This document shows positions 1,043-37,153 of a stretch of DNA of 37,394 bases, one piece after another. The notes below the pieces were generated by a model. It was not told the DNA's origin, did no database searches, and was given only the letters and a program-made list of their open reading frames with translations. A program made the translations under genes and the position numbers. Origin of the DNA: an uncultured Chthonomonas sp. (GTDB lineage: Bacteria; Armatimonadota; Chthonomonadetes; Chthonomonadales; Chthonomonadaceae); assembly GCA_903919615.1 (NCBI GenBank), contig CAIXIX010000352.1, positions 1 to 37,394 of the forward strand, given 5' to 3'. Within the stretch, counting starts at the first letter, position 1; each line of letters starts with the position of its first letter.

Positions 1043-2509
1043 TTAACTAATGATTTTCTTTATCGGCTCTATCGGTACAACGCCAACCAGCTTCTGGTTG
1101 AGGCCGTTATAGAAATAGCTGAGGTTGTTTGGATCGAGCCCAAGCTGATGAAGAATGGTGCCATGTAGGTTCTTGACGTGGTACCGGTCAACCGCAGCCT
1201 CCATGCCGAGTTCGTCGGTCTCACCTGCCGTGGTGCCGCCCTTGATTCCGCCACCTGCCATCCACATGGTGTATCCGTAAGCATTGTGGTCGCGCCCATC
1301 TCCCGTACCATGCGACGTACGGCCGAACTCGCCGCCCCACACGATAAGTGTTGAATCGAGGAGACCGCGCTGCTTAAGATCGTTGATGAGAGCCGCGATT
1401 GGCTGATCAGTCCTTAGCGCATTGCGGTTATGGTTTGGAACCAGGCCGCCGTGGGCATCCCAGAAGTTAAGGAAGTTCGTATTGCCGCCTCCCGCATAGA
1501 GCTGAATGAAGCGTACACCATGCTCTACCAATCTGCGCGCAAGCAGACACCGATACCCGAAGTCTTTCGTCTCTTCCTTGTCGAGCCCGTACATCTTCTT
1601 GATAGATTCCGGCTCTTTCGTGATATCCACAGCTTCCGGAGCATGGCTCTGCATTTTGTATGCGAGTTCGTAGCTGGCTATTCGGGCGGAAAGATTGGAG
1701 TTATCCGCTCGAGGAGCGCGATGCGATTCGTTTAGCCGGCCAATAGAATCCAGAACATCCCTCTGCATACCGTCCGTCATTCCTGGCGGAGGCGTTAGAT
1801 CAAGGATAGGATCGCCTGCGGCACGCAACACAGTACCTTGATAGGCAGCGGGCATATATCCGGAAGACCAGTTCTTTGCTCCAGAGATCGGGCCGCCGGT
1901 GGTATCCATCATAACAACAAAGCCGGGGAGGTTCTGATTAACGCTGCCAAGACCATAGTTGACCCAGGAGCCAAGACTGGGGCTGCCTGTAAGGATCTTG
2001 CCAGTGTTCATTTGGATCATTGCTGAGCCATGCACGGGGGCGTCGGAATACATGGAGTGGATAAATGCCATGTCGTCGACACAGCCGCCAAGATGGGGAT
2101 AGAGATCTGAGACGTACTTCCCGCACTGCCCGTATTGCTTAAACTTCCAACGCGGCTCCATCAGTTTAAGTTCGGTTGGCTTATTGCCGTTACGGAAGCT
2201 TCGTACGGTGATCGTTTGGCCATCACGCCCTACGAGCTTCGGCTTGTAATCGAAGGTATCCAGCTGGCTGGGACCGCCATACATAAAGAGGAAGATGACG
2301 CTTTTCGCTTTTGCGGGAAACATCGGAGGCTTTGGCGCTAGCGGGTTAGCGCTGGCGCTATGAGGCCTAGCATGTGCGGTATCTGGAGACGCTCCCGCTC
2401 CGTTAAAGAAACCGTCTGCGCCAAGTAAACCAGTCATCGCCAGACCGGTAAAGCCTGCGCCCGTTTCCCACAGAAACTCTCTTCTCGAAGTTCGGCACAC
2501 ACCGCTCAT
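1043..2509 (-). CDS. DUF1501 Tat-exported protein
   Basis: I place the start at 2509, which gives 488 residues. That ATG has a GGAGAGAA ribosome site and produces MSGVCRTSRREFLWETG, a twin-arginine (Tat) signal; the reading frame stays open further upstream without a better start. The mature protein has DUF1501 (PF07394) hallmarks: SVIFLFMYGGPSQLDTFDYK, WGGEFGRTSHGTGDGRDHN and a C-terminal HLHGTILHQLGLDPNNLSY-like segment. The fold is related to alkaline phosphatases and sulfatases. These proteins usually sit beside DUF1549/DUF1553 proteins, as here, where the partner ends 43 bases upstream. The biochemical role of the pair remains unproven. Confidence 0.92.
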   Translation of the reverse strand: MSGVCRTSRREFLWETGAGFTGLAMTGLLGADGFFNGAGASPDTAHARPHSASANPLAPKPPMFPAKAKSVIFLFMYGGPSQLDTFDYKPKLVGRDGQTITVRSFRNGNKPTELKLMEPRWKFKQYGQCGKYVSDLYPHLGGCVDDMAFIHSMYSDAPVHGSAMIQMNTGKILTGSPSLGSWVNYGLGSVNQNLPGFVVMMDTTGGPISGAKNWSSGYMPAAYQGTVLRAAGDPILDLTPPPGMTDGMQRDVLDSIGRLNESHRAPRADNSNLSARIASYELAYKMQSHAPEAVDITKEPESIKKMYGLDKEETKDFGYRCLLARRLVEHGVRFIQLYAGGGNTNFLNFWDAHGGLVPNHNRNALRTDQPIAALINDLKQRGLLDSTLIVWGGEFGRTSHGTGDGRDHNAYGYTMWMAGGGIKGGTTAGETDELGMEAAVDRYHVKNLHGTILHQLGLDPNNLSYFYNGLNQKLVGVVPIEPIKKIIS

Positions 2510-2552
2510 TACGTTCTCTCCGTATGGTAGTTCACCAAGATCACAATGCAAG

Positions 2553-5468
2553 CTAGTCCAGATACACAAACTCATCCAGGTTCAGCGCCGCGAGGCACAG
2601 ATACTGGAGCGCCTTTTCATGCGTCGCGCCTCTTTGTTCAAGGCGCTTAAGGAGGGCGGCGCCCTCCGTTGTCTCTGCTTCCGTTGGCCTTCGCTGCATT
2701 GTCAGCGAAAATGCTCTAATTACAAATGCTCGATCCGTTCCAGATGCGCCGATATCCTTCGAAACTCTCTCGGCCATCGCTGCGGCTTGCTGATTGGCGA
2801 AGGTGCCATTTACCAATCCTAGCGCCTGAGTAGGCTGCGTTGAGGCAAAGCGCAACGCACTCGTTCTGTCGGTATCCGGCAGGTCGAACGTCGCTAACAG
2901 TGGATAGATCAGCGAGCGCTTAACATGGATATAGATGCTTCGCCGATTAACATCCTCCGGTTTCATTTTCTGGGTATACCAGTCATTTCCGGGTATAGAT
3001 TGCGCCGCGAGAATATCCTTCGGAATTTCGGGATAAACGGATTCTCCATAAAGCTTTAGATTCAGATTACCAGATGCGGCAAGAATGCTGTCTCTTATCT
3101 CTTCCGCTTCGAGCCTACGCATATCAAATCGCCAGAAAAGATCGTTGCCGGGGTCTTTTGCGAGACCGTTGGGATTCGACCGTGAGCTCTGCTTATATGT
3201 ATTGCTGGTAAGGATGAGTTTATGCAGCTTCTTAAAACTCCATCCGTCCTGAACAAATCTGGCAGAAAGCCAGTCCAGAAGCGCCGGATGAGTCGGTCTT
3301 GAGCCCTGTATACCGAAATCGTTGGGTGTGCGGACAATTCCTCTGCCAAAATGACCTTGCCACACTCGGTTGACGATCACTCTAGCGACAAGCGGGTTCG
3401 ATGGCGACGTTAACCATTCCGCGAGCGCTGTTCGTCTGCCAGAGCTTGTTGCACCGGCTGGCGGAGCCGGCATAACTGCTTCCCCACCACCGAGGCATGT
3501 AGGGAATCCAGGCTGTACCTTCTCGTCTGGCGCGTTGGGGTTTCCGCGCTTCAGCACAAAGGTGTCGGTGGCATTTGGTCCAGTTTCGGTTACACAAAGG
3601 ACCTTGGGAGAGGCAACCTCCTGTTTATCCAGCTCCGCCTTTCGCTGCGTTATTTTGTTATAGAGTTCTGCCCTATCTCTTCCGACGATCTGTGCGAGCT
3701 CCGCCTTCAGCAGTGTAGGCAATCCTAATGAAGAGCATGCAGAGAGCGCCGAGAGCGGGCGCCGTTCAAAGCCCGGGCCACTCCAGGCGAAGTTCAGCCC
3801 AAAAGGGCCTACACTTTGAAAATAGTCAATTCGAAATGGAACCTGGCCAGCAGCAAGATGAAGCGTTGCCGTCATCTCGGCGCCCTGGCCGCCTCCCGCC
3901 TTCTCTGTGAGCTTATTGCCCGCGATCGTTAGCTTAGAGCCATCATCTGTATCGATGTAGAATGTGTAGTTCCCTGCCTGTGGCGCCTTCAGCTCTCCTT
4001 CGAAAACGTACCCAAAGTTCTCATCGCGTCTACGAGTTTTTAGATCGATGATCGCAGGCATTAGTGTGCCAGACTTGATTGGTTTTAGCGTCTCAAAATC
4101 CGGCATGCTTCCAAAGGCGCCTTCGAAGTATCGATAGCGCAAACCGACGAAATCGGATGGTTTAATAAGGCTGTCGCGGCCCTTGTTATATGCGTCTTCT
4201 ACCCGCTTTAATTCATTGGCGGCAGCTTTTCGTTTGGCGTCGAGATCTGCTAGCTTTTCTGTATAGGCTGCCTTCTCCTCGGCGCTCGCGAAGAAGATGG
4301 ATTCATCCGTTGGCCCGCCATTCTTGAACCGATTTATGTTCTTGAAGAAGGCGACCATGCGATAGTAGTCCCGCTGAGGAATGGGATCGAATTTATGATC
4401 GTGGCAGCGCGCACAGTCCAGAGTTAGCCCGAGTAGCGCCTGGCCTGTTGTTACGACGAGATCATCGAGATCGTCGTTTTCGGCCTGTTTGATGTCCGCG
4501 GGCTCATCGTCCCAAATCCCGAGGCGATAGTAACCGGTGCCAGTCAGGGCGTCGCCTGCGCCTTTAGCAATCTCATCACCAGCAATCTGTTCGCGCACGA
4601 ACTGATTGTAAGGTTTATCCTGGTTAAACGCGGAAATCACCCAGTCGCGATAGCGATACACGTTGGGTTTTGGATTGTCTCGCTCGTAGCTGTTTGTTTC
4701 GGCATAGCGCACTACATCCAGCCAGTGCCTGCCCCACTTTTCACCATAGTGCGGTGAGGCGAGCAGCCGATCGACAAGCGTATCATACGCGCCAGCCGAG
4801 CTATCCGCTTCGAACGCGCTCACCTCCTCGGGCGTGGGTGGCAGACCGGTGAGGTCAAAGGAGAGCCGCCGTATCAGTTCACGTCTGCTAGCGACAGGCG
4901 AGGGTTTGAGGCCGCGCTTCAGAAGTGGATCGAGAATAAATGCGTCGATTGGATTGCGGGACCAGTTCGCAAAACGAGGATTTAGAACTGTAGGCGACGC
5001 GGATTTACGAAGAGGTTGAAATGCCCAGTGACTCTTTGCGCGACGTGCGATATCGGACGAAGGCGAAACGGAAGTCCCTGATGGCCAGTATGCACCAGCC
5101 TTCACCCACATCTCAATCGCTTCGATCTTGTCTTGTGCGAGCGCAGAGCCGAGAGGCATCCGTGCGGCCTTGCCTTCCCCTTTCACGCGCTTTACGATCT
5201 CCAGGGCGTTCTGCGCAGATACGGGACTATCGAGCCGCAACCCACCGCCCGGGTTTTCCTTGCCGTGGCACCCCATGCATGATGCGATTAAAAGCGGTCG
5301 GATTTTGTTCTCGAAAAGTTTGGCGTGGGCATCCGTCGGCGTTTGTGCAGCAGCACGATTTCCAGAATGGCTGGATATCAGGCAAACTGCCGCTAACACT
5401 GCGGTCAGTGTGTCGGTTAGATGGGTACGTTTAACGAAGATGCGCATCATTTGCATTAAGAGACACAT
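2553..5468 (-). CDS. DUF1549/DUF1553 protein with cytochrome-c motif and PA14 domain
   Basis: A 971-residue exported protein. After the signal peptide (to about residue 42) comes a planctomycete cytochrome-type domain with C64-M-G-C67-H68. DUF1549 covers about 170-375 and contains the usual second haem-like motif ARCHDHKFDPIP. A charged coiled coil and an inserted PA14 domain (about 440-575, DTDDGSKLTI) follow. DUF1553 begins near 690 and ends in the typical LNLDEFVYLD. PA14 suggests carbohydrate binding and the CxxCH motifs suggest electron transfer. Three in-frame ATGs lie within 21 bases of the chosen start (at 5456, 5450 and 5447) and none has a clear ribosome site, so the exact N-terminus is uncertain. 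Confidence 0.92.
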   Translation of the reverse strand: MCLLMQMMRIFVKRTHLTDTLTAVLAAVCLISSHSGNRAAAQTPTDAHAKLFENKIRPLLIASCMGCHGKENPGGGLRLDSPVSAQNALEIVKRVKGEGKAARMPLGSALAQDKIEAIEMWVKAGAYWPSGTSVSPSSDIARRAKSHWAFQPLRKSASPTVLNPRFANWSRNPIDAFILDPLLKRGLKPSPVASRRELIRRLSFDLTGLPPTPEEVSAFEADSSAGAYDTLVDRLLASPHYGEKWGRHWLDVVRYAETNSYERDNPKPNVYRYRDWVISAFNQDKPYNQFVREQIAGDEIAKGAGDALTGTGYYRLGIWDDEPADIKQAENDDLDDLVVTTGQALLGLTLDCARCHDHKFDPIPQRDYYRMVAFFKNINRFKNGGPTDESIFFASAEEKAAYTEKLADLDAKRKAAANELKRVEDAYNKGRDSLIKPSDFVGLRYRYFEGAFGSMPDFETLKPIKSGTLMPAIIDLKTRRRDENFGYVFEGELKAPQAGNYTFYIDTDDGSKLTIAGNKLTEKAGGGQGAEMTATLHLAAGQVPFRIDYFQSVGPFGLNFAWSGPGFERRPLSALSACSSLGLPTLLKAELAQIVGRDRAELYNKITQRKAELDKQEVASPKVLCVTETGPNATDTFVLKRGNPNAPDEKVQPGFPTCLGGGEAVMPAPPAGATSSGRRTALAEWLTSPSNPLVARVIVNRVWQGHFGRGIVRTPNDFGIQGSRPTHPALLDWLSARFVQDGWSFKKLHKLILTSNTYKQSSRSNPNGLAKDPGNDLFWRFDMRRLEAEEIRDSILAASGNLNLKLYGESVYPEIPKDILAAQSIPGNDWYTQKMKPEDVNRRSIYIHVKRSLIYPLLATFDLPDTDRTSALRFASTQPTQALGLVNGTFANQQAAAMAERVSKDIGASGTDRAFVIRAFSLTMQRRPTEAETTEGAALLKRLEQRGATHEKALQYLCLAALNLDEFVYLD

Positions 5469-6756: not shown

Positions 6757-7410
6757 CTACTGCTTCAGTTTCGAGCGAAAAACCGCGTGGAATTTGTCGA
6801 TTTCGGGAGCGATCACCAGACGACAGTATGGCTGATTGGGATGCAGCTTGTAGTAGTCGATATGGTAGTTTTCGGCTGGATAAAAGTTCACATACGGCGA
6901 GACTGCCGTGACAATGTGGCCTGGCCATACGTGATTATCGGTAAACTTCTTGATCATCTCATACGCCTCTCGACGCTGTTGATCGTTGTGGTAGAAGATC
7001 ACAGACCGATACTGCGGCCCGTCATCGTTACCCTGTCGATTGAGTGTCGTTGGGTCGCGCATAGTGAAGTAGACGTCAAGCAGCTCTTTAAAGGTGATCT
7101 TTGATGGATCGAAGGTGATATTGATGGTTTCGGCATGCCCTGTCGTGCCGGTCTCCACATCCTCATAGCTGGGATCCTTCAACTGACCTCCTGCATATCC
7201 TGGTACAGCCTTCTCAACTCCCTTTAGCTGCTTGAAGATGGCCTCCATGCTCCAAAAGCATCCCGCAGCCAGAGTCGCAGTCTGTCGTTCAACTCTAGGT
7301 GGAGCTGCACTGGAGACTTGGGCGGTTGCTGTAGTAGACCCACCGATAGTCAGTGCGATTAACAATCCACAGATAAGTTGCAACGGGCTCTTCATTGTGT
7401 ATCGAAGCAT
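6757..7410 (-). CDS. msrA: Exported peptide methionine sulfoxide reductase A
   Basis: A 217-residue protein that reduces methionine-S-sulfoxide in proteins. The catalytic GCFW motif places the nucleophile at C51. The rest is canonical: VPGYAGGQ, YEDVETGTTGHAETINI, FYHNDQQ and a C-terminal HPNQPYCRL carrying a second Cys that could resolve the intermediate. Residues 1-31 form a signal peptide (LICGLLIALTIGG, cleavage near TAQ), so the enzyme acts in the cell envelope rather than the cytoplasm. A second ATG five codons in (7395) is an equally good start. It has its own terminator and appears monocistronic. Confidence 0.95.
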   Translation of the reverse strand: MLRYTMKSPLQLICGLLIALTIGGSTTATAQVSSAAPPRVERQTATLAAGCFWSMEAIFKQLKGVEKAVPGYAGGQLKDPSYEDVETGTTGHAETINITFDPSKITFKELLDVYFTMRDPTTLNRQGNDDGPQYRSVIFYHNDQQRREAYEMIKKFTDNHVWPGHIVTAVSPYVNFYPAENYHIDYYKLHPNQPYCRLVIAPEIDKFHAVFRSKLKQ

Positions 7411-30078: not shown

Positions 30079-32919
30079 TCACCAGGTGACACTGGCGCCG
30101 TGCAAGATATTGGCCGTCTGAATAATCTGTTTCACTCTCTCGGTCAACTCCTTCATGCGAAACGGCTTCTGGAGAAACGGAAGGTCTCCGATGGCAGCGC
30201 CATGCCCGTTAAAGATCTCGTCTGTAAACCCGGATATGAGCAGTACGGGTACCCCGGGACGGGTCTCGGAGAATTGTCTGGCAAGCTCAATACCACCAAT
30301 AATGGGCATCATCACATCGGTCACGAGCAGATCAATAGCAGATCGGTCGTCCGCCAACATCTGAAGCGCTGCCTGCCCATCTGCTGCCTGTAGAACGTGA
30401 TATCCTCGACGCTCGAGGGCCGTAACCATTAATGACCGGAGCAGCGGTTCATCATCTACCACCAGCACCGTTGAGTGAGTCAGTTTTGGTGCAGGCGTGG
30501 TCGTAATGACCACTCCCGCTCCTTGCTCAACGGGTCGATCGATGAACGGCAGGTACACGCGGAACTCGGCGCCTTCACCCATCGCCGAATCCAGTTCTAT
30601 ATGCCCGCCACTTTCCCTTACGATGCTGAACACGGTTGACAGGCCCAGGCCCGTGCCATTGCCTTTCGCCTTCGTCGTGAAGAATGGCTCAAATATCCTC
30701 GACTTTATCGCATCCGGTATTCCCGTTCCAGTGTCCTTTACGGTAAGGACCGCGTACTTTCCGCCCGAAAGCACGGGGATCCGGTCCTCCTCCATGTTCT
30801 CGGTAGTGCTGGTCTTAATCAAGAGTTCGCCACCCTCAGGCATTGCATCTCTAGCGTTCACCACAAGATTAAGTAGTATCTGCTCAAAGTTGTTCGAATC
30901 GACGTATACCGCTCCAGCATCGGGATCAAGATCGATTTGAATCCGAATGCGTGGACCGACAATCGAAACGAGCATGCGATCCATATTCTCAACGAGTGCA
31001 TTTAACACAAAAACGTCAGGAGTGACAGGCTGTCTGTGAGCAAACGCCAGCAGCTGCTTCGTAAGGCTGGCAGCTCGTTCTGCCGCAGACGTGACAGAGC
31101 AGAGATACTGTTGAACGGGATCATCGGCTTCAAGAGCCTCAGTGGATTGTTCCGTGTAGCCCTGAATAATCGTGAGCAAATTGTTAAAATCGTGTGCGAT
31201 AGCGCCGGCAAAGGTTCCTATGCTCTCCATCTTTTGAATGTGCATTAGATGGCTCTCCAGCTCGCGCTGCTGCGTGATATCCATAAACGTGTGGACTACT
31301 TTTGCGACGGCTCCGGTCTCATCTTTAATCGGCTTGCCGCGTGCCTGAAAGCAACGGCTCATTCCATCCGAGCAGGTCCTCGTAATCTCGAGCTCATAAC
31401 CCCTGCCGGTCGTTATTGCGACCTTAAGCGCACTCTCCAACCGTTGTCGATCGTCAGGGCTGTATGTACTTAGGAGCTGTTGCAAGTCGATTACACACTC
31501 CTCATCATTGCTCCCCATCAATTGACTGAATTCCCTGGAGAGCCAGACCGAGCCGGTTGAGACATCCAGCTCCCAGCTGCCAATGTGCGCTATCTCAAGC
31601 GCTTGATGCAGCCGGGTACGCGCCAAATCAAGCTCGGAGGTATGAGCTTTCTGAGTACTGATGTCGCGCCCAATTCCAGAGCGATAGAGTATTCGGCCGC
31701 CTTCTAGACTGTGAACCAGCATCTTCAGAGATACCGGCACCTTACGTCCATCACGCGAGACAAACTCGCACTCACCGGTCCAGTTGATATCTGCATTAAA
31801 TACGGGAATATGAGGGCTGAATTTTGTCCAAGACTCGGCGGAGTGAATGTCTCGGACAGTATGTTTCGTAACCTCATCCTCTGAAATGCCAAGCAGTCGT
31901 CTCATGGCAGCATTACAATATAGCAAGTTGCCCTGCATGTCCGCTGTTGCGATAAAATCGGTAGAATCCTCAACAATGGCAATAAGACGGCTCTGTGTTT
32001 GTTCAAACTCCTTACGTTCAGTTATATCCGTCGTCGTGCCATACTGCCGGATGACGTTTCCTTCATCATCACTTTCGACCTGGTTAACTGTGTGAATCCA
32101 CTTCTCTCTGCCATCCGGCATGGTTAGACGGATATCGAATTCGCCGGGCGTGTTGACGCTGCCGTTCTGCCTGACCGGTTCCTCTCTCTGCTCAATAACT
32201 TCGCCATGATATAGGCTCAACACATCATCAAGTTGCGGCACATCTCCACGCGGGTCGAACTCCATGATGTGGAACATCTCGTCGGACCAGGCGATGACGT
32301 TGGAAGCGAGGTCGTGCTCCCAGTTGCCAACATGCGTCATGGACTGTGCCTTGATAAATCGCCGGATCGCCATTTCCGACTCTCTCTGTTTGTTTTTGAT
32401 GTAGATGCGCTCTACGGCCTGTCCAATGAAGAAACTGATCGACTCCGCTGCGATACGTTCGGCTGAACCAATCGCTGAGTTCTCTATGTATTCATATCCT
32501 ATGGCGCCAAGCAACTGCCCTCCGACCGATATGGGGGCAAACAGACCACGCTCAATACTGCTGAGAGATGCGCATTGCGAAAAGAGAGGGCATGAAGCTG
32601 CAATAGCCTCATATTCTTCGTATAGCGGTTGAGGAGGCGCCGTTGCGCATGCGCAGGCAGGGAGATCCTGACAGCAATGCATGCCACAACCATGCGGTAG
32701 ATGGTCGTTCTGAAGCAGGCGTGACACGTATTTGGACAATTCGGTTGGTATAAGCGCAATTATGCACCGCTGTGCGCCACACTTAGCCGGAACAGAGTGT
32801 GTGACTACATTCACGATAGATTCAACATCTTCAGCTCGCGCAAGTTCTCGCACCAATTCGAGCATGTTTTTACTGGACCCGTCTTGGTAATCCAGTCCAT
32901 TTGAACGATCCAATTTCAA
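30079..32919 (-). CDS. Hybrid sensor histidine kinase with Cys-rich GAF-like domain
   Basis: A 946-residue kinase without membrane segments, so cytoplasmic. Domain order: a GAF-like input (about 20-170) with nine cysteines (47, 52, 78, 82, 83, 89, 91, 110, 116); three PAS domains (about 190-560), the first two showing PAC endings; HisKA with H576 in IAHDFNNLL; HATPase_c (VNARDAMPEGGELLI, DTGTGIP, GNGTGLGLSTVFSIV); and a C-terminal receiver with D868 (LLVTDVMMP) and FLQKPF. The cysteine set could bind a metal, an Fe-S cluster or sense redox. The output partner is unknown. It is transcribed toward the second efflux operon and lies beyond the surface locus. Confidence 0.93.
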   Translation of the reverse strand: MKLDRSNGLDYQDGSSKNMLELVRELARAEDVESIVNVVTHSVPAKCGAQRCIIALIPTELSKYVSRLLQNDHLPHGCGMHCCQDLPACACATAPPQPLYEEYEAIAASCPLFSQCASLSSIERGLFAPISVGGQLLGAIGYEYIENSAIGSAERIAAESISFFIGQAVERIYIKNKQRESEMAIRRFIKAQSMTHVGNWEHDLASNVIAWSDEMFHIMEFDPRGDVPQLDDVLSLYHGEVIEQREEPVRQNGSVNTPGEFDIRLTMPDGREKWIHTVNQVESDDEGNVIRQYGTTTDITERKEFEQTQSRLIAIVEDSTDFIATADMQGNLLYCNAAMRRLLGISEDEVTKHTVRDIHSAESWTKFSPHIPVFNADINWTGECEFVSRDGRKVPVSLKMLVHSLEGGRILYRSGIGRDISTQKAHTSELDLARTRLHQALEIAHIGSWELDVSTGSVWLSREFSQLMGSNDEECVIDLQQLLSTYSPDDRQRLESALKVAITTGRGYELEITRTCSDGMSRCFQARGKPIKDETGAVAKVVHTFMDITQQRELESHLMHIQKMESIGTFAGAIAHDFNNLLTIIQGYTEQSTEALEADDPVQQYLCSVTSAAERAASLTKQLLAFAHRQPVTPDVFVLNALVENMDRMLVSIVGPRIRIQIDLDPDAGAVYVDSNNFEQILLNLVVNARDAMPEGGELLIKTSTTENMEEDRIPVLSGGKYAVLTVKDTGTGIPDAIKSRIFEPFFTTKAKGNGTGLGLSTVFSIVRESGGHIELDSAMGEGAEFRVYLPFIDRPVEQGAGVVITTTPAPKLTHSTVLVVDDEPLLRSLMVTALERRGYHVLQAADGQAALQMLADDRSAIDLLVTDVMMPIIGGIELARQFSETRPGVPVLLISGFTDEIFNGHGAAIGDLPFLQKPFRMKELTERVKQIIQTANILHGASVTW
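32572..32688 (-). other. Cysteine cluster in kinase GAF-like domain
   Basis: Codons 78-116 hold seven Cys: C78-x3-C82-C83-x5-C89-x-C91, then C110-x5-C116. The stretch HGCGMHCCQDLPACAC also contributes two His. Such density inside a cytoplasmic sensor fold suggests ligand coordination rather than disulfides. Confidence 0.6.
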
Positions 32920-33063: not shown

Positions 33064-33564
33064 CTAATAACCGAGGGATTCAACCTTCCACACAATGTTT
33101 AGTGAGTGCATGCCAGCGTGGACATGAGCTGGCAAGGGGGCTAGCTTGAAGGTGATGTCGCATCGCCCCTGAGATGGGTTGGTGATACTATCGAACAGGT
33201 CGCGATAGGATGATGCATCCAACATGCCGGCAACCCCCGACCCGCCGGACGCTCCAGATACGGACCACGAAATATTCGAGGCTGGGATCTGCGTGCCAGA
33301 CGGGCCGGCAAACGTAGTAGCCCCCGCCTTCGCTGAAATTCGCATCGAATGACCGGTGTTTAGATGCGCTGCGGTGAAGGTGAATGTGGTTGGTGTTGGT
33401 ACACCGACTGTTGTTTCGCTCATATCTAGCACATAGAAGGCCACGGAAACTGGCATGTCGATCGTAACGGATTCAATATCCGCGCGAGACTGTGAGACCG
33501 CAATCACTATAGCTACGGCACATAGTGATGCGAAGCCCGAATGAGCAGCCATGCCACTGTTCAT
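33064..33564 (-). CDS. Secreted beta-sandwich subunit B (putative tip or terminal subunit)
   Basis: A 166-residue exported protein with GGAG before the ATG and a signal peptide to about residue 28. The mature part is a paralogue of subunit A encoded at 36560-37153: F43-YVLD aligns with F63-NVGD, MRISAKAGATTF with LRVSVKASATNF, and the ends share HSLNIVWKVES versus MLSLTWKVES. B starts directly at the first shared strand and lacks the roughly 20-residue extension of A. It is the last gene of the locus, the place of tip subunits in chaperone-usher operons. Function is inferred from context; no known family was recognised. Confidence 0.75.
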   Translation of the reverse strand: MNSGMAAHSGFASLCAVAIVIAVSQSRADIESVTIDMPVSVAFYVLDMSETTVGVPTPTTFTFTAAHLNTGHSMRISAKAGATTFAGPSGTQIPASNISWSVSGASGGSGVAGMLDASSYRDLFDSITNPSQGRCDITFKLAPLPAHVHAGMHSLNIVWKVESLGY

Positions 33565-33650
33565 CTCTTCGACTCCGCAATCCAGCGCGGCGTATTAACG
33601 TCATCCATGTTGTCGCCCACGTTCACCAGCCTCAGTTGGGCCGGATATCT

Positions 33651-35675
33651 CTACTTGACTTCTTGAAATTCGATCGGCCTGTCCCTGTATTCTATCTGAA
33701 AAACCACTTCCGGCGCAGTGCCATCTGCTGCAAGATTCACATCAACCGCCGGTGGCGACAGCAGCACATAACCGGTAGGAAGTTTCGCAGTGTCGATCTC
33801 TATCCGACGTGGTCCAGGGTCAACATTATAAAACGCGAACGATCCGTCATCCGCGGTTGCCGTAGCGGCATCGCCCAGTCTCAAAACAACGCGCGCAATA
33901 CCTTCACCGGGGTCGGGTCTGCCATTGCCATTCTTATCCGCATAGACCCTGCCCATAATCGCCCTCAAAGGCACAACCCGGAAATCCAATCGCTGTCTGC
34001 TTCGTCCTGATAACGTTACCCGTTGCTCTTTTGTCTCAGATCTATAATCAGCAGAGAGGGCTTCTTGGTCGATCTTGACAGAGTAGATACCTGCTGGAAT
34101 ATCCGGAACGTCATACTCACCTTTATCGTTTGTCAGCGCTTTGTACTCGCCAATCTTTATCATTGTCTGCTTGACAGGTTTGCCTGTCTGATCCACAACC
34201 TTACCGAAAAGATGCGCGCCGTGCGCTGGGGTTCGCTCGATCCAATGTGATCTAAGCATTAACATAAATCCGTTGCTGGACTGAACGGTCGAGACGCTCT
34301 GGTAGGGCATTAGCCGACCGTACTCAAGCGACATAGCGAGGTCGGGAGTCAGTGTGTGATTAACACGCACTCGCATGCGATCCTGCGCAAAAAGCTCTGG
34401 GAATCCGCTCAGAAATTGCAAATCATAAGACCGAGCCAGCCGAAAGGTGGCGACTACCTGAGCCCAGTTTTCCGCTCTATTTGACTGATCCCACCGAAGC
34501 GAATTTTGTATCGAGAGGGTTGTTTCGCGACGGGGAGAATAGTTGGCAGTGATCAGTAGTGTCCGGTTCGACTGAAACAGCACCGTCGGTGCGTCTGGGG
34601 ACGTGATAAATGAAACGCCACCCAGTTGATACCGCGCCTGAAGGTTCATGCGTCCAGCCGGGAGGCTCAGGGAGATGGCGGTGCCCGTCGTCGTGGAACT
34701 TGTGGTCGTGGTCTTAGACTGCTCTAAGCCGAGCGAAACGCCATGTCGTAGTGGCACGGTGACGCCATATAGAGTGCTGATGCTCTGGCTCATGAGCGTC
34801 GTAGTTCGCCCGAGGCCGGTGGCTCCGCTCGCGGTCGTAACCGCGTTATTGTGGTTTAAGCCTCCATAAACGCTAATGCCTCGTCCGAAATTGTATACGA
34901 TTGAACCGCCAGCGCCGGTCGAGAGCTGCATGGGCTTATACTGGTAGTTTGCGAACAGGCTGAGGCGCCGGGCAAGGGTTTGCGCGTGAAGCAAGAAACT
35001 ACGGTCAGAATCGATCTCACCGCCAACGCTGGTCCTGTTTCTGAGCTGAATCGAGTCTCGGTAAGTAACCGCGAAATGAGATGGAGAGCCTGGTTGGTTG
35101 ACAAGGATTGCAGCTATGGCCGGGGAACGGTTGGGCTTTGATGGCAACGAGTAGCTGACACCGTGCACAAGACCCCAGATCTCACTTGATAGGTCACCTG
35201 CCTGCAATGACCAGCCGCCATCATGGTTCCAGAGATTCAGATGCTGCGAAGCAAGCCTTGTGCCGAGCGCGCCCTGTGTGGCAAACGCGCCAAAATCGAC
35301 CAGAGTACCAGCATCACTTCCGGACGCTGTAAATTCTATCGCGGAATCTGCACCCTGAACAAGGCCGATGCCTAGGCCATATCTGAGCGACTCGTTCTGA
35401 GAAGGCAGCTTCTCATCGTGTGGCCGCGAAGGCATCTGATTCGATGCGGCGAGTTCCGCCTGGTGTTCCGCCATCTCCTTTTCGGTCATGTTCAGGTTGA
35501 AGGTTGCTAACCCGCTATCAACACCAGACCCGAGGGCTGCCTGCGGCTTCGCTTCCTGGGCATTAGCAAGTCTCCCGAGTGGAAATGCAACAAGACCGAC
35601 CGACACCAGAACCCATGCGTAGATGTGATGCTCACTTCTTTGTTTGAGCGTCCGATTGTGTGCTGGCTGTCGCAT
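33651..35675 (-). CDS. Outer membrane beta-barrel with Cna-B/SdrD-like C-terminal domains (usher-like)
   Basis: A 674-residue protein. I choose ATG 35675, which overlaps the chaperone stop by 44 bases and implies coupling; residues to about 43 contain the signal peptide. About 85-510 show repeated amphipathic strands typical of a beta-barrel (VTYRDSIQLRNRTSVGGEID, SLFANYQYKPMQL), with WSLQAGDLSSEIWGLVHGVS recalling usher barrels. Two small Ig-like domains follow: a carboxypeptidase-regulatory type (GKVVDQTGKPVKQTMIKIG) and an SdrD-B type (VYADKNGNGRPDPGEGI). Standard FimD-like ushers are longer (about 800 or more residues), so this would be a divergent or minimal usher. A different surface barrel is the alternative. 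Confidence 0.7.
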   Translation of the reverse strand: MRQPAHNRTLKQRSEHHIYAWVLVSVGLVAFPLGRLANAQEAKPQAALGSGVDSGLATFNLNMTEKEMAEHQAELAASNQMPSRPHDEKLPSQNESLRYGLGIGLVQGADSAIEFTASGSDAGTLVDFGAFATQGALGTRLASQHLNLWNHDGGWSLQAGDLSSEIWGLVHGVSYSLPSKPNRSPAIAAILVNQPGSPSHFAVTYRDSIQLRNRTSVGGEIDSDRSFLLHAQTLARRLSLFANYQYKPMQLSTGAGGSIVYNFGRGISVYGGLNHNNAVTTASGATGLGRTTTLMSQSISTLYGVTVPLRHGVSLGLEQSKTTTTSSTTTGTAISLSLPAGRMNLQARYQLGGVSFITSPDAPTVLFQSNRTLLITANYSPRRETTLSIQNSLRWDQSNRAENWAQVVATFRLARSYDLQFLSGFPELFAQDRMRVRVNHTLTPDLAMSLEYGRLMPYQSVSTVQSSNGFMLMLRSHWIERTPAHGAHLFGKVVDQTGKPVKQTMIKIGEYKALTNDKGEYDVPDIPAGIYSVKIDQEALSADYRSETKEQRVTLSGRSRQRLDFRVVPLRAIMGRVYADKNGNGRPDPGEGIARVVLRLGDAATATADDGSFAFYNVDPGPRRIEIDTAKLPTGYVLLSPPAVDVNLAADGTAPEVVFQIEYRDRPIEFQEVK

Positions 35676-36486
35676 GGATGATATCCATCTGCTTCTGTGC
35701 GCCAATATAGTGCGCCAGGCCAATATCTAACACCGCGCGAACCATATACTTTCCGGATGGCAGCGCTGCGGGTGTAGGAAGGGGCACTGAAATGATTGAT
35801 GTATTAATGGGCTCCGGCAATACCGTGCTGCGGGTCATCTTGACGCTTGCCACAGGCTTGGTCAGATCTCCTAGCGAATAGTATTCGACACGGCCCTCAA
35901 TGCCGAGCGGACAATTTCCATCATTGCCGACTTTCAATGAAGTCGCAACACCATCGGTGCTCAACTGTAGGATCTTCGCGCTCCGGTCTACTGAGGTAAC
36001 GTTTATGAAGATCCCGATCGAAACCGATGCCGTAAAGACGACGCCAACACCTTGTGGAACGATCTTGTTCGGATCGGCAACCTCATCGACGGTCAGTGCG
36101 CACCAGTAACCTCCCGGCTTCGTATCGTTGGGAACGGCTGCCGAGATTCGAACCGTAAGCGTTTCACCTGGATTAACAGAACTCTCGACCGGGTTCAATT
36201 TAATCCAATTTGCGCAAGAATGTTTTAGAGTGCCGGGAGCCTTGTAAAACGATTGTTTGCCATCCTCACTCCTCCACCAATCTTCAAGGTGCGCTTTAAA
36301 TTGAGTTCGCTGTTCACTTTTGTCTAAAGTCAATCTGAAAGCGCGTGTAATCTGTTGTCCTGTCTGGGCGTCCACTTTTATGGAACTCATATCTGAGTGG
36401 AACTTAAGTCCAAGTGCGCCAGTACAAGGCAAAAAGAATTGAATTGCAGCCGCGATGGTTAAGAAGGCGCTGGTTCGATGTAACAT
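35632..36486 (-). CDS. Periplasmic PapD/DUF916-like chaperone
   Basis: A 284-residue exported protein with GAGGAG before its ATG and a signal peptide to about residue 24 (CTGALG). Two Ig-like halves are seen. The first has ITRAFRLTLDKSEQRTQF, NWIKLNPVESSVNPGETLTV and VPNDTKPGGYWCALTVDE. The PGGYW stretch and the ordering resemble both fimbrial chaperones and the DUF916 proteins that partner WxL proteins in Firmicutes. The second half ends with GKYMVRAVLDIG. Placed between a subunit gene and a barrel gene, it probably caps or delivers subunits A and B in the periplasm. Exact family membership is uncertain. Confidence 0.72.
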   Translation of the reverse strand: MLHRTSAFLTIAAAIQFFLPCTGALGLKFHSDMSSIKVDAQTGQQITRAFRLTLDKSEQRTQFKAHLEDWWRSEDGKQSFYKAPGTLKHSCANWIKLNPVESSVNPGETLTVRISAAVPNDTKPGGYWCALTVDEVADPNKIVPQGVGVVFTASVSIGIFINVTSVDRSAKILQLSTDGVATSLKVGNDGNCPLGIEGRVEYYSLGDLTKPVASVKMTRSTVLPEPINTSIISVPLPTPAALPSGKYMVRAVLDIGLAHYIGAQKQMDIIHATASTQSDAQTKK

Positions 36487-36500
36487 CGATCGATCTCCTC

Positions 36501-36532
36501 AAAAAGGTCCGTCTCATCGCTGAAACGGACCT
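36501..36532 (-). terminator. Intrinsic terminator between subunit A and chaperone genes
   Basis: On the minus strand AGGTCCGT (36532-36525) and ACGGACCT (36512-36505) form a perfect 8-bp stem with a 12-base loop, followed by four T residues. It lies after the subunit A stop and just ahead of the chaperone ribosome site, so only part of the transcription should continue into the assembly genes. Confidence 0.75.
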
Positions 36533-36559
36533 GGAATCTCATTTCTGTTCTCGATTAGG

Positions 36560-37153
36560 TTAATGGCCGTCACCACCGTCGCCGCCATCGATGCTTTCCA
36601 CTTTCCACGTAAGTGATAGCATGTGACCACCTGAGCGCTTGACGCCTGTATTCGCGGCAAGCGTAAAGTGAAGGGTTGTGGTAGAGAACGCTGCTGTATC
36701 TGCATTGCCAATAACAACGGGCGTATACGATGACTGTGATAGCGTTCCAGCCTGCCCAGTTCCGCCGGTCCAGTAGGTCGCTGCATCCCAGGTTACAGCG
36801 GATGCTGCCCAGGTCGTTGCACCATTTACGGAAGGAGTAAAGTTGGTTGCCGATGCTTTCACTGATACGCGCAGTTGCTTAGTTGGACTGACGGTAACAA
36901 CGTTTGTCACAGTCAATGCCGCCGCAGTCGTCGAAGGAGTTGGGTCTGAGATATCGCCAACATTGAAGGTTATCGCCGCCGGAACTGTTATGTCACACTG
37001 CTCATACACATGAGCCGTAAGGGTCGTGCCGGTAAGCTCGTTTGCGTGGGCTGTTATATCGGTAGCGCTTTGCGCTATCGCTGCCACACTTGACATTGCA
37101 AACCATACGATCACAGTCACAATTGCCGGAGCGAAGATGCGCTTTGAGTACAT
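36560..37153 (-). CDS. Secreted beta-sandwich subunit A (putative major fibre subunit)
   Basis: A 197-residue exported protein with a GGAG ribosome site and a signal peptide to about residue 28 (SVAAIAQ). Residues about 29-50 form an N-terminal extension with alternating residues (LTGTTLTAHV). A beta-rich domain follows (CDITVPAAITFNVGD, LRVSVKASATNF) ending MLSLTWKVESIDGG and a Gly/Asp/His tail. It is a paralogue of subunit B downstream. The extension could act as a donor strand as in chaperone-usher pili. A terminator follows the gene, as expected for a highly expressed structural protein. No named family was recognised. Confidence 0.75.
   Translation of the reverse strand: MYSKRIFAPAIVTVIVWFAMSSVAAIAQSATDITAHANELTGTTLTAHVYEQCDITVPAAITFNVGDISDPTPSTTAAALTVTNVVTVSPTKQLRVSVKASATNFTPSVNGATTWAASAVTWDAATYWTGGTGQAGTLSQSSYTPVVIGNADTAAFSTTTLHFTLAANTGVKRSGGHMLSLTWKVESIDGGDGGDGH

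Follow-up and report, generated by a model that had tools for sequence, protein, structure and literature searches.

A four-gene locus of an uncultured Chthonomonas sp. probably encodes a plug-less chaperone-usher variant with a chaperone related to PapD-type and WxL-binding proteins

The question raised by four adjacent genes at positions 33,064 to 37,153 of contig CAIXIX010000352.1 (uncultured Chthonomonas sp., Armatimonadota) is whether two secreted subunits, an Ig-like periplasmic chaperone and an outer membrane barrel form a surface assembly system and, if so, to which of the known pathways it is related. The stretch analyzed (hereafter the window, 37,394 nucleotides) is the entire contig C352 of a 7.4 Mb genome that consists of 614 contigs, and the host is diderm, as members of the OEP family are present in its genome. 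The original prediction had described four minus-strand genes in the order A, chaperone, barrel, B, with paralogous subunits and overlapping chaperone and barrel genes, all of which was confirmed here. Based on the evidence given below, the cassette is considered likely to be a plug-less, WxLIP-like variant of the chaperone-usher pathway which assembles a thin surface fibre. Its genes are as follows.

36560-37153, minus strand: subunit A, 197 aa, secreted, single domain, predicted rod subunit; an open reading frame with a homologue preceding the chaperone gene in group I relatives and a paralogue on contig C110
35632-36486, minus strand: WxLIP-like periplasmic chaperone of the PapD superfamily, 284 aa, with two Ig-like domains and lacking a C-terminal membrane helix
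33651-35675, minus strand: barrel protein of the outer membrane, 674 aa with ATG at 35675 as start codon, proposed to be an usher without a plug
33064-33564, minus strand: subunit B, 166 aa, a secreted paralogue of A that has one domain and no N-terminal extension, predicted to be the first subunit or the tip

The cassette order (one to three subunits, chaperone, barrel and, in part of the loci, B) was found to recur across many Armatimonadota families and also beyond the phylum, hence its arrangement is not due to chance. Using the window chaperone as query, relatives were identified in 35 of the 291 phylum genomes, while the chaperone family profile identified 43 at E 1e-8. Full-length relatives of the barrel locate mostly to those genomes that possess the best chaperone matches; many weaker barrel matches in the phylum cover mainly the generic C-terminal domains. 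The distribution is patchy, as within the family of the window the cassette is confined to the window's genus among the genomes examined. Outside the phylum, similar cassettes reside on Deinococcus plasmids, and cassettes with DUF4402 subunits were found on plasmids of Polaromonas, Novosphingobium, Sphingopyxis and Pseudoalteromonas, with one further cassette of the DUF4402 type in an Armatimonadota genome (G107, locus L051). Co-occurrence of the genes in three phyla, together with the chaperone relationship described next, supports the idea of a divergent chaperone-usher-like locus, a fibre being its presumed product.

The evidence that carries this reading comes from the chaperone. Single-sequence searches with the window chaperone gave no match, and its relationships were revealed by profile comparison. 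The chaperone of a canonical archaic operon matched the chaperone family profile (97.9%, E 5.2e-13, 200 columns) and likewise the window's own subgroup (82.6%, E 9.7e-6), with the reversed control at E 0.22. Compared with the chaperones of K-12 alone, the profile reached E 2e-4, and when one archaic chaperone was added to these, E 7e-10 was obtained for the whole family and 6.6e-6 for its Armatimonadota members only. Moreover, two proteobacterial members scored 25.3 and 23.2 bits with Pfam PapD_N and thereby pass or touch its cut-off of 23.0 bits. These comparisons document that the window chaperone is homologous to PapD-superfamily chaperones at the sequence level, with the archaic one being the strongest match. 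The archaic reference derives from L113 (G228:C105:1-6725). This archaic chaperone-usher operon is of canonical type, encodes SCPU-like subunits and contains the sole PF00577 match over cut-off among the 291 phylum genomes; it is possibly foreign to Armatimonadota, since its contig is short (6.7 kb) and the genome shows 6% contamination, which leaves its use as a query unaffected. Three sites of the window chaperone are of relevance in this respect.

36190-36192, minus strand: codon of Pro99, aligned with the invariant proline of the chaperone-usher chaperone superfamily
36103-36105, minus strand: codon of Trp128, located where the archaic chaperone has its strand-F1 Arg
35998-36051, minus strand: GVGVVFTASVSIGIFINV, a segment with alternating hydrophobic residues, placed from alignments and proposed to be the donor strand G1

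A proline was reported to be the sole residue invariant across the chaperone superfamily (PMC4654587). Pro99, which aligns with the invariant proline of FimC, is kept in 18 of 18 Armatimonadota sequences and in at least 90% of 22 aligned sequences. The strand-F1 Arg was reported as the most characteristic residue of non-classical chaperones (PMC4654587); judged from its strand, it would correspond to Arg89 of CsuC. Both the archaic reference and the entire proteobacterial-type set of seven (six proteobacterial sequences and L051) possess this Arg, while the window chaperone has Trp128 at this position.

The same chaperone family profile matches both domains of DUF916-DUF3324 proteins (WxLIP) from lactobacilli, pediococci, enterococci and Niallia (E 3e-10 to 1e-11; reversed controls E 0.2-0.6), as well as the solved EfmWxLIP1 chains 9i1y and 9i25 (E 4e-8). 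As neither the K-12 chaperones (E 0.13) nor the archaic chaperone (E 0.31) match DUF916 directly, it is this family that links PapD with WxLIP. Hence, based on profile comparison, the chaperone is related both to Gram-negative pilus chaperones and to Gram-positive WxL-binding proteins, a connection for which, as far as found, no earlier report exists and which is considered the most interesting part of this work. The original prediction had offered a chaperone-usher lineage and a WxL/DUF916-like system moved to a diderm as alternatives; because one chaperone profile matches both, the two ideas are not exclusive, and while the DUF916 match was obtained, nothing shows a move.

The WxLIP match raises the possibility that the locus encodes a WxL-like display system in a diderm, in which A and B remain attached to the chaperone-like protein and are displayed by it as a small surface complex, the barrel serving as anchor or export pore and no fibre being formed. 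The two-domain similarity is what this explanation draws upon, yet the relationship runs via the wider family, as the window subgroup alone remains at background against DUF916 (E 0.03, below the Pfam cut-off) but reaches E 9.7e-6 with archaic chaperones. The window chaperone also ends in a polar tail, whereas those Gram-positive DUF916-DUF3324 proteins that were fetched whole end in a hydrophobic helix. Known WxL/WxLIP clusters resemble the locus in combining one homologous two-Ig partner with two small partners, but they belong to monoderm hosts, possess a membrane helix on WxLIP and lack a barrel. Considering in addition that the locus contains an outer-membrane-type barrel which in relatives is a true usher, that the comparison of the subunits with WxL was negative and that A carries a conserved extension absent from B, the display explanation is regarded as unlikely.

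The second line of evidence for a fibre-assembling chaperone-usher variant comes from the subunits. A and B are paralogues, as A used as query identifies B in its own genome (E 1.3e-9, 29% identity), and they differ at their N-termini.

36995-37072, minus strand: QSATDITAHANELTGTTLTAHVYEQC, by which mature A is extended at its N-terminus; candidate donor strand with the conserved motif TT[LF]TA.V.EQ

This motif is common to the extensions of all A-type subunits except that of L038. Signal cleavage sites were placed by eye (AxA), and for L034, L036 A1 and L037 the counts were taken from the printed sequence. On this basis, the stretch ahead of the conserved Pro in the first core strand measures 25-30 residues in each of 12 A-type subunits as compared to 7-11 in each of 9 B-type subunits, so that the two ranges do not overlap. 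As far as can be judged from these sequences, such a difference would be anticipated if A provides a strand while B only accepts one and would hence reside at the tip. The subunits stop right after their last strand, with window A and its closest relative as exceptions, and in L036 subunits of both types locate upstream of the chaperone.

A third line of evidence is provided by the barrels of related cassettes. The match of the proteobacterial-type barrels to classical and archaic ushers spans 534 columns, with plug and C-domains included (E 3.4e-11), the barrel alone giving E 4e-7 and the archaic usher alone E 2.9e-8. As compared to the window locus, these DUF4402 plasmid cassettes share the order of subunit(s), chaperone and barrel, a homologous chaperone (E 2e-16) and like C-terminal barrel domains, but differ in their plug-like barrel domain and significant usher homology, in the DUF4402 nature of their subunits and in having kept the F1 Arg. 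The window barrel was confirmed to be shorter than FimD and to end in Cna-B/SdrD-like domains, as originally described, here identified as CarboxypepD_reg and SdrD_B/SpaA-type domains. Two regions were delimited within it.

34227-35393, minus strand: residues 95-483 (389 aa), rich in beta-strands and with about 22 alternating segments, proposed to form the barrel
33654-34226, minus strand: two C-terminal beta-sandwich domains in the place of usher CTD1/CTD2, a generic match

The alternation within the 389-aa region (z 3.0 against shuffles) resembles that of the FimD barrel (2.2-2.5) and is unlike that of the histidine kinase encoded in the window (-2.5); other group I barrels showed weaker alternation (z 0 to 1.5). 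The window protein is proposed to adopt a barrel fold with a pore. Some relatives carry a copper-amine-oxidase-type N-domain on their barrels, which is absent in the window, L001 and L036. A GD motif at the plug site, noticed by eye as common to window-type barrels and FimD, was not used, as a segment-wise profile comparison remained at background.

Several observations weigh against a chaperone-usher assignment. Comparing the window-type barrel-only profile with ushers gave E 0.0015-0.005, the highest reversed control being 0.0052, and hence sequence alone does not link the window barrel with ushers. No plug was found in it, and none is visible in the group I alignment (judged by reading only); an N-domain is likewise absent. 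Usher homology via the C-domains was considered and rejected, as CarboxypepD_reg tandems from non-usher proteins of the phylum gave matches that were just as good, so this match is not evidence for an usher. An AlphaFold2 model of the barrel (two-sequence alignment) was unusable, with a pLDDT of 31. The chaperone keeps neither the classical Arg/Lys anchor for the subunit carboxylate nor the archaic Arg, and no conserved basic pair was seen in its strands A1 and G1. For the subunits, comparison with pilin, SCPU, DUF4402 and WxL profiles was negative (SCPU E 0.29, WxL E 0.13), and a Pfam scan of 17 group I subunits gave no match, including SCPU (PF05229) and WxL; these negative comparisons with Fim, SCPU, DUF4402 and WxL are uninformative, since SCPU against Fim was negative too. 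Finally, canonical tip adhesins possess an extra receptor domain, which B lacks.

Alternatively, the barrel might be a porin- or autotransporter-like exporter, with A and B acting as monomers that are secreted or form a sheath, the Ig protein as a general holdase and the likeness to chaperone-usher operons being convergent. The barrel-only comparison, the generic C-domains and the lack of a plug agree with it, and by the criterion given in the original prediction a barrel without plug or usher N-domain would speak against an usher role. However, the chaperone is homologous to pilus chaperones and not to general holdases, the operon order is that of archaic operons, and in the related proteobacterial cassette a homologous chaperone resides next to a barrel which possesses both usher homology and a plug. 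The exporter explanation is therefore held to be improbable, even more so than a display system.

At the opposite end, the locus might be an ordinary archaic chaperone-usher operon which merely diverged too far for Pfam. Like the archaic (sigma, Csu-type) pathway it shows the order subunit, chaperone, usher, subunit, it combines subunits that carry an extension with one that does not, and archaic chaperones are the closest to its own. Unlike that pathway, it lacks SCPU subunits, a Pfam Usher match and a detectable plug or N-domain: PF00577 finds nothing in the window's genome and passes the cut-off in 1 of 291 phylum genomes. Moreover, Trp replaces the anchor Arg, and the two-domain WxLIP similarity is not a property of the archaic chaperone itself. 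Among the explanations considered, this one is the least probable. With the classical Fim/Pap systems the locus shares the gene set and logic as well as a chaperone whose two domains can both be aligned and which keeps the invariant proline, but direct similarity is low, the Arg/Lys anchor is missing and B is a single-domain protein as opposed to a two-domain adhesin.

For the favored chaperone-usher variant the following assembly mechanism is suggested. Signal peptides would carry A and B over the inner membrane, where the periplasmic two-Ig chaperone may give its G1 strand to the incomplete sandwich of each subunit. Thus formed chaperone-subunit complexes are assumed to dock at the outer-membrane barrel, which would function although it lacks a plug and N-domain of the classical type. 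At this site, an incoming A is proposed to displace the chaperone strand with its own N-terminal extension of 20 residues, whereby A would polymerize through the barrel to yield a thin surface fibre. B, which without an extension can only accept a strand, is expected to start the assembly and to locate to the tip.

In a wider frame, the cassettes may represent an undescribed chaperone-usher class across Armatimonadota, Deinococcota and Pseudomonadota that joins PapD (diderm) and WxLIP (monoderm), with strand donation as one old shared mechanism and Armatimonadota fibres passing a barrel without plug or N-domain; this is put forward tentatively, as a serious possibility still somewhat short of being probable. 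If true, chaperone-usher assembly would extend to a phylum in which the standard usher model detects almost nothing, and a reduced usher would be at hand for testing the purpose of plug and N-domain. An AlphaFold2 model has been reported in which a DUF916 strand inserts into WxL (PMC10599100); the PapD-WxLIP link would explain this predicted insertion and render the origin of donor-strand complementation testable. Furthermore, a likely function would be given to widespread proteins annotated as DUF4402, 'molecular chaperone', 'carboxypeptidase regulatory-like' or 'FimB/Mfa2'. In the literature search, no paper was found that mentions DUF4402, joins usher, chaperone and Armatimonadota, or deals with the plasmid cassettes annotated as DUF4402, 'molecular chaperone' and 'carboxypeptidase regulatory-like'. 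A chaperone-family member on Deinococcus deserti plasmid 2 (L109, 5947-6717) is publicly annotated as 'FimB/Mfa2 family fimbrial subunit', which is likely a misannotation.

The loci read with their flanks sort into group I (window type, with A and B), group II and group III, the latter being characterized by N-terminal Ig domains on the barrel and other small secreted proteins upstream. In the group III barrels of L046, L047, L048 and L050 these fused domains are chaperone-like by profile match to the chaperone family, as if a chaperone or docking copy had become part of the usher. Open reading frames of 530-650 aa with two tandem chaperone-like two-Ig units (e.g., L045, 2619-4328) occur in many Armatimonadota genomes without a barrel. 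In L042 (G193:C366, 4719-6938) an in-frame TGA splits the barrel gene between the barrel and the C-terminal domains.

As for the gene calls, chaperone and barrel genes overlap by 44 bp (35632-35675) when the barrel starts with ATG 35675, and by 92 bp when TTG 35723 of the mechanical list of open reading frames is used. The ATG is preferred, as the relative in L001 (an uncultured Chthonomonas metagenome-assembled genome) starts at the aligned position, and the overlap there is the same (6782-6825). In L001 three A genes precede the chaperone, and in the window's genome a further A gene, 66% identical, resides at the edge (start) of contig C110, for which reason the window operon is probably cut by the contig end. 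Promoter and terminator scans of the locus performed no better than shuffles. Horizontal transfer, judged by composition, was rejected, as the GC content of the locus equals that of the remaining window. A hybrid histidine kinase (PAS, HisKA, HATPase, receiver; 30079-32919) is encoded on the same strand 144 bp after B; a regulatory link to the cassette is a mere guess, since the kinase is not adjacent to it in L001. Elsewhere in the window (1043-5468) a DUF1501 protein adjoins a PSCyt2/PSD1 (DUF1549/DUF1553) protein with a PA14 domain, a pairing familiar from Planctomycetota.

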